Shown: piece by piece, positions 1,965 to 5,466 of the stretch
Numbering within the stretch: position 1 is the first letter of the stretch
Layout: each line of letters begins with the position of its first letter
Source: an uncultured Candidatus Poseidoniales archaeon
GTDB lineage: Archaea > Thermoplasmatota > Poseidoniia > Poseidoniales > Thalassarchaeaceae
Direction: 5' to 3'
DNA: 43,695 nucleotides
NCBI GenBank assembly: GCA_902573085.1
Contig: CACGHY010000008.1
Location: 1-43,695, forward strand
Notes under the pieces: model-generated
The model's database searches: none
The model's input: the letters and a program-made list of their open reading frames with translations, nothing else
Told to the model about the DNA's origin: nothing
Program-made: the position numbers and the translations under genes

Positions 1965-2699
1965 ATGCCCCCCCGACAAACCTCTGTGGGGGATACGATT
2001 CTCAGGGGCAAGAAGGTCGTTGTCCTTACTGGTGCTGGAATTAGCGCGGAGTCGGGCGTCAGGACATTCAGGGACAACGACGGGTTGTGGGAAAATCACC
2101 GAATTGAGGACGTTGCAACACCGGAATCATGGGCTAGGAACCCCTCTTTAGTTTGGAAATTCTACCAGACCAGAAGGAGACAGTTACTGGAAGTTGAGCC
2201 CAATCCTGCGCACATGGCGGTGGCTCACCTGGAGGGCAAGTGCAAGTCACTCGTTCTAGTTACCCAGAACGTGGATGATCTCCATGAAAGAGGGGGGAGT
2301 AGCGCCATTATTCACATGCATGGAAGTTTGCGATCTCTCCGCTGTCAGAATACAGGGCTGAGCGAGGTCAGGATGGGAGAGCATGATCTAGCAGAGGGTT
2401 TCGTCCTCTGCAATTGCTGTACGGTGGCTACCATGATGAGGCCCGACATAGTTTGGTTCGGTGAGATCCCCCTTGAGATGAGCGTCATTCAGAAGGAGGT
2501 GGAGGATTGTGAGGTATTCATCGTCATAGGCAGCTCTGGGCACGTCTACCCTGCTGCAGGTCTAGTTAATCTGGCCAACTCAAACGGCGCTCACACCATT
2601 CTAGTAAACTTCGAACTTCCCATCAACGGTAGGGACTTCGACGAGGTGCACATAGGCAAGGCAGGCGAGATACTACCAGAACTAGTGGAGAATTGGTAG
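1965..2699 (+). CDS. cobB: NAD-dependent sirtuin deacylase, class III type (CobB/SIRT5-like)
   Basis: This is a complete Sir2-family enzyme of 244 residues. Visible motifs are GAGISAESG (23-31) for NAD binding, TQNVD (100-104), the HMHG motif with catalytic His119, zinc-site cysteines at 127, 149, 151 and 152, and GSSGHVYPAAG near the C-terminus. Residues Tyr67 and Arg70 in FYQTRR correspond to the Tyr-x-x-Arg pair that in E. coli CobB and human SIRT5 binds acyl groups ending in a carboxylate, so desuccinylation or demalonylation is likely besides deacetylation. The enzyme removes acyl groups from protein lysines using NAD. Its best resemblance is to bacterial CobB, including the GHVYPAAG segment, which may point to transfer. 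It is preceded by a hairpin and followed by a cysteine-rich microprotein on the same strand. Confidence 0.93.
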   Translation: MPPRQTSVGDTILRGKKVVVLTGAGISAESGVRTFRDNDGLWENHRIEDVATPESWARNPSLVWKFYQTRRRQLLEVEPNPAHMAVAHLEGKCKSLVLVTQNVDDLHERGGSSAIIHMHGSLRSLRCQNTGLSEVRMGEHDLAEGFVLCNCCTVATMMRPDIVWFGEIPLEMSVIQKEVEDCEVFIVIGSSGHVYPAAGLVNLANSNGAHTILVNFELPINGRDFDEVHIGKAGEILPELVENW

Positions 2700-2749
2700 T
2701 CCCCTTGGCACTGAATAAGTCCAAAACTAGAGATATTAATTGGGTTACC

Positions 2750-2759
2750 TCTAAATAAT
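2750..2759 (+). promoter_or_regulatory. TATA box of the cysteine-rich microprotein gene
   Basis: The AT-rich element TCTAAATAAT is centred about 24-25 bases before the ATG at 2779. This matches the spacing seen at several other genes in this window and indicates a separate leaderless transcript for the microprotein. Confidence 0.5.
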
Positions 2760-2778
2760 AATCCATATACTCAACATT

Positions 2779-2844
2779 ATGCCTTGCAACTGCTGTGACT
2801 GTGATCCTTGTGGCCCCAGTTGTTCCTGTGATGGGTGCTGTTGA
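2779..2844 (+). CDS. 21-residue cysteine-rich microprotein (metallothionein-like composition)
   Basis: The frame ATG (2779) to TGA (2842-2844) codes for 21 residues of which nine are cysteine (positions 3, 5, 6, 8, 11, 15, 17, 20, 21). The remaining residues are Asp, Gly, Pro, Ser, and Asn, with no hydrophobic residue other than the initiator Met. CxCC, CxC and CC spacings are those of metal-thiolate cluster peptides. A TATA box at 2750-2759 places a transcription start at the ATG, so it has its own leaderless promoter rather than being read-through from the sirtuin, 80 bases upstream. I know no family it belongs to. Metal (Zn, Cu, Cd) buffering or a redox role are guesses from composition. 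It is too short for most gene finders. Confidence 0.6.
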   Translation: MPCNCCDCDPCGPSCSCDGCC

Positions 2845-3855: not shown

Positions 3856-5466
3856 TCAACTGGAGCATGAAAGCATCGAGCATCCTACTCGGTTCCTGGC
3901 CCACTCTGGCCTCCTATTGAACCATTCTTCCTCATTCTTTGGTTGTTCCTCGTATGGTTTCTTCAGCATTCCGTGGAGGGCTTGTGCCACGGAGTAATCA
4001 TCCTTCTCAGCAGCATCGATTGCCAGCTGGGCCATCCAGTTCCTCAATACATACTTCGGATTGGCATTCAGCATCGACTCCCTATTTGGGCGGCCATCCA
4101 CCCTCTCCCACCACCTGGCCAGCCAAGAGTTCCACTCATTCTGCGGGATTTCCTCGACGTCGTAGAAGGCTCGACCCAGATGGTTTGGGTCTGGCCCTTG
4201 GATGCTAGAAAGCATCCTGAATAGTATCGTCATGTCAGTCTCGGTCGACTGCAGTACTGATGTCAATTCCGAGACTAGTTCACCGTCTCCCTCCTGAAAC
4301 CCGTCAAGTCCGAGTTTCTCGGCCCACATGCGTCTGCTATGAGTTGTGTACGACTCATAGTATGAGTCCAAGGCCTCGTGAAGGGACCTTGGTTCTTCCA
4401 TCAGGAGAGATATCGACTCCAGGAGTCGAGCGAAGTTCCAGGCCCCGACCTCGCCCTGATGAGCGTACCTGTACCTCCTGGTACTCGAATCGGTAGTGTT
4501 CGGAGTCCAATCGGGATCGAAACCCTCCAGCCAGCCGTATGGGCCGTAGTCTATTGTTAGCCCATGGATTGACATGTTATCGGTATTCATCACACCGTGC
4601 ACAAACCCAACTCGCATCCAGTGAGCGATCGTGAGTGCGGTCCTATCGGCAACCTCCTTCAGCCACTCCACCAGTCCCTGATCCGAGTCCGAGGAGTGGT
4701 CTGGGAAGTGCTGACTCACTGTGTTGTCGACTAGGGCTCGCAGAGTCTTATCGTCTCCCGACATCGCATGTATCTGAAAACTGCCAAATCGGAGGAAACT
4801 CTCGGCCACCCTGCACACAATCGCACCCGGCTCGGGTGCAGGCCTCCCGTCATACATCACGTCGCGCATCACCTCCTCACCAGTGGTGACAAGGGATAGC
4901 GCCCGGGTGGTCGGAACGCCCAGGTGGTGCATGGCCTCGCTGCATAGGAACTCACGAATCGAGGAGCGAAGGACAGCCCTTCCATCTGCAAATCTCGAGT
5001 ATGGCGTCTTGCCCGATCCCTTCAGCTGTAGCTCTAGTACGCCCTTCCCAGTGTCAACCTCCCCGAGTGTTATCGCCCTGCCGTCCCCGAGTTGGCCGGC
5101 CCAGTTCCCGAACTGATGCCCCCCATACCTCTGGGCATATGGGTCCATGCCCTCGACCTTGCCGTTCCCAGCGAGCAAACCGGCCTCCCCGACTTCGAGG
5201 CATAGGTCGCTGGCCATCTCCTCGGACCACATTCTCAGAACGGGATTTGGCATTGGCTCTGGTTCCACCCTGGACCAGCAGGCGCCTGGTACCTGCCTCG
5301 GGGCTCCGCCGGAAATCTGGTCCCCGGGAGTTTCACTGAGAAAATGTCTGACCCATTTCAGCGAACCCAATGATTTCTGTCCCACGAAACGCTGTACTGC
5401 CCGGGTCAATTGAAGTTGTGCATGTCGGAAATTCCAGAGTTTATTGTTTCTAAAAAATAAATTCAC
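3856..5466 (-). CDS. selO: Protein adenylyltransferase SelO (YdiU/UPF0061 pseudokinase)
   Basis: The family signature RYGGHQFGNWAGQLGDGRA is at about residues 113-131, followed by LQLKGSGKTPYSR (candidate ATP-contacting Lys149) and the metal/nucleotide site NTDN (294-297) and DYGP (Asp306). SelO uses a protein-kinase fold with ATP bound in reverse to transfer AMP to Ser, Thr or Tyr of target proteins, and is linked to redox stress in bacteria and mitochondria. The protein ends in Cys-Ser-Ser, the position of selenocysteine in animal SelO and of cysteine in E. coli. The annotated start is a GTG at 5466. The first 27 residues lack family character, so a start at GTG 5385 or TTG 5370 (LGSLKWVRHF) is quite possible. 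It is divergent from the membrane protein at 5497. Confidence 0.94.
   Translation of the reverse strand: MNLFFRNNKLWNFRHAQLQLTRAVQRFVGQKSLGSLKWVRHFLSETPGDQISGGAPRQVPGACWSRVEPEPMPNPVLRMWSEEMASDLCLEVGEAGLLAGNGKVEGMDPYAQRYGGHQFGNWAGQLGDGRAITLGEVDTGKGVLELQLKGSGKTPYSRFADGRAVLRSSIREFLCSEAMHHLGVPTTRALSLVTTGEEVMRDVMYDGRPAPEPGAIVCRVAESFLRFGSFQIHAMSGDDKTLRALVDNTVSQHFPDHSSDSDQGLVEWLKEVADRTALTIAHWMRVGFVHGVMNTDNMSIHGLTIDYGPYGWLEGFDPDWTPNTTDSSTRRYRYAHQGEVGAWNFARLLESISLLMEEPRSLHEALDSYYESYTTHSRRMWAEKLGLDGFQEGDGELVSELTSVLQSTETDMTILFRMLSSIQGPDPNHLGRAFYDVEEIPQNEWNSWLARWWERVDGRPNRESMLNANPKYVLRNWMAQLAIDAAEKDDYSVAQALHGMLKKPYEEQPKNEEEWFNRRPEWARNRVGCSMLSCSS

Follow-up and report, generated by a model that had tools for sequence, protein, structure and literature searches.

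Archaea of the order Poseidoniales, which are among the most abundant in the zinc-poor, sunlit ocean, encode a conserved 21-residue peptide that is probably a minimal metallothionein-like buffer or store of cytosolic zinc and a member of a predicted zinc-homeostasis regulon under a ribbon-helix-helix regulator of the NikR family. If this is true, a conserved, unannotated peptide of a zinc regulon would fill the archaeal gap among metallothioneins, put a lower bound on the size of metallothionein-like proteins and show that important microproteins are missed by gene callers. The regulon would also provide a testable answer to how zinc is controlled in Archaea without Zur, namely through a relative of NikR whose operator differs in position by gene class.

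The gene lies in a window of 43,695 nucleotides, the whole stretch of DNA analysed here (Table 1). Direct reading agrees with an earlier note on this DNA, which had described a 66-base frame with nine cysteines in 21 residues and no hydrophobic residue after Met; beyond this Met, the peptide has no aromatic, His or aliphatic residue. An in-frame stop lies 5′ of the frame and no start codon falls between this stop and the ATG at 2779, which is therefore the sole usual start. The same note had placed a TATA box at leaderless spacing, and the TATA-like element does stand at the distance typical of leaderless genes, while a Shine-Dalgarno-like motif is not seen in 45 of the 46 homologs. No other small cysteine-rich frame occurs in the window. 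In 400 simulated windows of the same dinucleotide make-up, no open reading frame had at least six cysteines at a content of at least 30%, and the frame thus far exceeds chance expectation.

Table 1. The microprotein gene and its promoter elements in the window (promoter positions in brackets are relative to the start codon).
Feature	Position	Strand	Details or basis
Microprotein gene, MPCNCCDCDPCGPSCSCDGCC	2779..2844	+	21 aa, 9 Cys, 2.1 kDa, pI about 4.05
Operator, inverted repeat TATTAATT-N11-AAATAATA (-45 to -19)	2734..2760	+	Scoring against homolog promoters
TATA box TCTAAATA (-29 to -22), which the operator's right arm overlaps	2750..2757	+	Conserved columns in homologs
In-frame stop TAA 5′ of the frame	2752..2754	+	Direct reading

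A codon-pattern search recovers 46 copies of the peptide in 45 of 319 Poseidoniales genomes, covering both families and 10 of 22 genera, and the reversed control pattern gives 0 matches over the same genomes. This stricter pattern replaced an order-wide, Cys-only pattern that allowed two mismatches, and most of the 131 genomes returned by the latter were rejected, their matches being wrong-strand readings of low-complexity repeats. A DNA search blind to the Cys codons also finds this region in relatives, where it still encodes an intact peptide. Every copy has 21 codons and follows the pattern CxCCxCxxCGxxCxCxxCC, in which the nine cysteines are virtually invariant (413 of 414 positions). The search imposed no start, and the copies begin in frame with ATG (42) or GTG (three). 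The earlier note had proposed looking for a conserved frame in relatives; start, length and stop are kept in 45 of the 46 copies, including that of the window. One copy (G183:C20:738-797, locus L144) is decayed, with its start out of frame, promoter eroded and operator lost, though the Cys codons remain.

Nonsynonymous and synonymous divergence (pN/pS) amounts to 0.14/0.87 over all codons, 0.36/0.76 at codons unconstrained by the search and 0.05/0.64 inside the genus, and the remaining two reading frames show no comparable ratio. It is the free codons that count, as the search partly builds in conservation at its own pattern positions. By this codon evidence, the frame is a genuine gene under purifying selection. 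The short DNA and the conserved promoter might suggest a conserved element of DNA or RNA whose frame is open by accident, but this reading is refuted by the codon pattern and has next to no chance of being right: synonymous change is near saturation while Cys is invariant, this is so in one frame only, and length is constant despite the use of three different stop codons.

The phylum sample contains no match beyond the order. Exact matches among 84,980 prokaryote species comprise 25 stretches, all from Poseidoniales / Marine Group II or from marine Euryarchaeota records equivalent to these genomes. In viral contigs, 20 matches were rejected, every one a repeat-derived frame, and phages and plasmids gave zero matches with the low-complexity filter on. 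No Pfam or NCBIfam family, named metallothionein families included, matches the peptide at E <= 10, a comparison whose power is limited by the short query, and no PDB entry matches it.

The copies average 8.98 Cys in 21 residues (43%), are acidic, contain CC, CxC and CxxC motifs and have no F, W, Y or H. Low mass, high Cys content, these motifs and the lack of aromatics are the composition of a metallothionein, and a metal-thiolate buffer would be its natural reading. The nine-Cys beta domain of animal metallothionein forms an M3S9 cluster, and the peptide, with an equal number of cysteines, could form one such cluster. The earlier suggestion of a possibly new metal-thiolate peptide, in which metal binding is putative, gains support from purifying selection, from the lack of any Pfam, NCBIfam or PDB match and from a promoter element in common with a metal-uptake regulon.

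The gene is patchily distributed and forms a single transcription unit amid many unrelated contexts. Its adjacency to a sirtuin, reported in the earlier note, is present in the window but incidental. The sirtuin/MscS surroundings are confined to the window and its close relatives, and a functional tie to either neighbour was rejected because contexts vary among relatives. In four loci (L159, L160, L161 and L169) the peptide gene adjoins COG0523 and in L176 the gene for the NikR-like regulator, with differing orientations among these loci. The sirtuin of the window (1965-2699) contains an atypical zinc-ribbon region (RCQNTG ... LCNCC) in place of two CxxC pairs, and a SelO-type protein adenylyltransferase (PF02696) is encoded at 3856-5466, in an archaeon. 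In g6/g7 genomes the microprotein adjoins the gene for a 116-aa protein (L160:7205-7555, L159:7405-7755), which follows COG0523, is weakly similar to DUF1636 and contains the motifs CNGCCCG and CLGPC.

Beyond what the earlier note described, the promoter contains an operator that links the gene, at the level of sequence, to ZnuABC, COG0523 and a NikR-like regulator. Upstream sequences of the copies have in common an inverted repeat, TATTAATT-N11-AAWTAWTA, with a TTTAWTAWT-like run of conserved columns at -29 to -20, and the TATA box of the window sits within this repeat. The operator scores at least 15/16 in 33 of the 46 peptide promoters, always at -45 or -46. The 13 copies without a good operator (MNC and MDC types, G007, G072/G076/G081 and the decayed G183) are mostly of the MNC/MDC type, a distinct subgroup, and the link between peptide and regulon is therefore not universal. 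Two loci 5′ of MNC-type microproteins (L165 and L172) have no NikR-like operator but contain, close to the start site, a palindrome (in L172, AATTCGGTAAATACCGAATT), which suggests a second regulator for that subgroup.

In the 45 genomes, the exact operator pattern occurs just a few times per genome. Apart from the peptide site, the recurrent ones are found at COG0523, at an FAD oxidoreductase gene and in the interval that separates the gene for a ZnuA-type binding protein from that for the NikR-like regulator. Among 489 genes in 61 loci, some picked because they carry sites and others independently of sites, 26 score at least 15/16, all of them NikR-like, ZnuA-type, COG0523 or flavoprotein genes, and none of the other 463 does so; the promoters come from related genomes and hence are not independent. 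The operator common to znuA and COG0523 promoters is the signature of a zinc-uptake regulon, and its presence at the ZnuA, COG0523 and NikR-like genes also gives the peptide the link to metal homeostasis expected of a metallothionein, both by sequence evidence. As the peptide, importer, COG0523, flavoprotein and regulator promoters all have this site, the peptide is assigned to the predicted zinc-homeostasis regulon.

Proteins of the regulon match the profiles PF01297, PF00950, PF00005, cobW with CobW_C, PF08753 and Pyr_redox_3, and a single cluster in genome G147 comprises COG0523, pirin, ZnuB, ZnuC, ZnuA, the regulator and aconitase X. The importer most resembles AztABC among NCBIfam models, below curated cut-offs, and the COG0523 (ZNG1-like) GTPase resembles the general COG0523/CobW and ZigA models, also below cut-offs. 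The regulator, COG0523 and the Znu permease were not found in the window's own assembly, which is 62.6% complete; an assembly gap likely explains this, since the three form one cluster in a relative. Two ZnuA-type proteins (L268:6811-9768, L270:7174-9858) are hugely expanded, to about 900-985 aa, with His/Asp-rich repeats, and that of L268 has EF-hands between the ZnuA domain halves. An aconitase X gene lies directly 3′ of the NikR-like regulator in several genomes (L268:10341-11999, L270:4846-6588, L272:1838-3580).

Because its promoter carries the same site as zinc-import genes, the peptide is probably metal-buffering, and probably among the smallest metallothionein-like proteins known. The choice of zinc follows from the importer and chaperone families, and copper or another soft metal may take its place. 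Detoxification of Cu(I) or Cd by a metallothionein that merely shares a promiscuous regulator is improbable. Short fungal metallothioneins of like size are Cu-thioneins (PMC4755600), but the regulon partners here are ZnuABC and COG0523 instead of copper export or chaperone genes, and no recurrent copper or arsenic gene family is seen beside the peptide among the partly identified neighbours.

The flavoprotein (L264, L265, L266, L267, L269, L203, L188, L277) is a Pyr_redox_3 oxidoreductase that depends on FAD and ends in the conserved tail (S)CCGQECLTC. Its operator is at -62, and in several loci it is followed by a probable membrane protein of about 85 aa. Within the zinc regulon it may act as a reductase of thiols or metal centres. 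It occurs in 70 of the 319 genomes of the order and in only 15 of the 45 peptide genomes, for which reason it was rejected as an obligatory partner. The peptide might also be a regulatory or signalling element that strips metal from the NikR-like regulator, or the precursor of a modified metallophore processed by the flavoprotein with its CC..C..C tail. The flavoprotein does carry the same operator, and both it and the regulator have Cys-containing tails; yet, given its limited co-occurrence, an alignment with no division into leader and core, and the lack of maturation genes fixed beside the peptide among the loci compared, this proposal is very unlikely.

The putative regulator has a NikR_C domain above gathering and an RHH_1 match that alone is below cut-off, together giving the RHH plus NikR_C architecture. 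Its structure model, of moderate quality (mean pLDDT 72) and serving fold assignment only, has the NikR fold, with best matches to Pyrococcus and H. pylori NikR. The nickel site of NikR consists of four ligands, three His and one Cys. Compared with Pyrococcus NikR (2bj1), and by the general ligand numbering of NikR, two or three of these are retained: the second His and the Cys are kept, the third His is Ser and the first His is absent in some members, which leaves the four-ligand set incomplete. The substitution by Ser would argue against a square-planar nickel site. A conserved C-terminal GCC and an SHxC motif (L202, L207-L236) are absent from aligned NikR structures, and an altered metal site is likely there. 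The regulator is present in 39 of the 45 peptide genomes and in 170 of 274 others (Fisher p = 0.001, with one regulator list and relatedness ignored). We infer that this protein binds the inverted repeat, that the metal is zinc and that the peptide binds zinc.

The operator adopts two distinct geometries. In importer-class promoters (ZnuA, COG0523 and flavoprotein) its distance to TTAAAW downstream is exactly 7 nt in 38 of 38 cases, not all of them independent, whereas for the peptide and the regulator it is placed over the TATA box. From these positions, on TATA in one class and upstream with rigid phasing in the other, one bound form of the regulator would block the peptide gene and help the importer. 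Production of the peptide, and with it the banking of zinc, would then take place when the metal is sufficient, and the importer would be turned on when it is scarce. Such mirror-image control is the most likely arrangement, modestly favoured over co-repression. A single archaeal regulator can act as an activator when its site is upstream of BRE/TATA and as a repressor when the site is downstream (TrmBL1/Tgr, PMC4158304). The Zur protein of marine Synechococcus WH8102 represses znuABC while activating the metallothionein gene bmtA (PMC9337993), and by analogy the peptide would store zinc and be produced when the metal is sufficient.

Under co-repression, the metal-loaded regulator would repress importer, COG0523 and peptide alike, and the peptide, produced under zinc scarcity, would be a shuttle that passes imported zinc to COG0523 or apo-enzymes instead of a detoxifier. 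This is a serious though doubtful alternative. Known metallothioneins are mostly induced by metal, and both the two geometries and the archaeal rule of operator position (PMC4158304) speak against it. However, the NikR proteins that have been characterised bind DNA when loaded with metal (PMC5385501), which would place expression of the peptide under scarcity and counts against the sign of mirror-image control. Moreover, the regulon partners are zinc-scarcity genes elsewhere (PMC2770081), and COG0523 is physically linked to the peptide in several genomes. The fullest form of the mirror-image reading, in which the first archaeal metallothionein-like peptide, the shortest known from any organism, is governed by a NikR-family protein re-purposed for zinc, with operator position alone deciding that the importer is switched on while the zinc store is switched off, is tentative and somewhat short of an even chance.

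The peptide resembles metallothioneins such as N. crassa Cu-MT, the nine-Cys animal beta domain and bacterial SmtA/BmtA in its small size, Cys richness, CC, CxC and CxxC motifs and lack of aromatics. Like BmtA of Synechococcus WH8102 (PMC9337993), it is tied to a zinc regulator, here a predicted one. It is shorter than the 26-residue Neurospora crassa protein, once regarded as the shortest (PMC4755600), and differs from metallothioneins in being archaeal, in its 43% Cys without His, in the absence of detectable sequence homology and in its putative metal binding. A search of open-access papers found no archaeal metallothioneins. Haloarchaeal CPxCG zinc-finger micro-proteins such as HVO_0758 are likewise archaeal and small, with Cys-based metal sites expected in both, but they have paired C(P)XCG motifs (PMC10716476). 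As the earlier note had recognised, the peptide stands apart from these, with a single CG (residues 11-12) among its nine cysteines and without the two C(P)XCG motifs of that class. The predicted regulator shares the RHH and ACT-like fold of NikR, and its operator, like that of H. pylori NikR (TRTTA-N15-TAWTA), is an AT-rich inverted repeat with half-sites about two helical turns apart. Unlike NikR, it has Ser for one of four nickel ligands, a conserved SHxC and a C-terminal GCC, scores below the NCBIfam NikR cut-offs and is encoded beside Znu/COG0523 genes. Zur was reported absent from archaeal genomes known in 2009 (PMC2770081). As in bacterial Zur regulons, znuABC and COG0523 are placed under one zinc regulator (PMC2770081), and a metallothionein is also included in the Zur regulon of WH8102 (PMC9337993); the predicted regulator in Poseidoniales, however, is NikR-like and not Fur-like.
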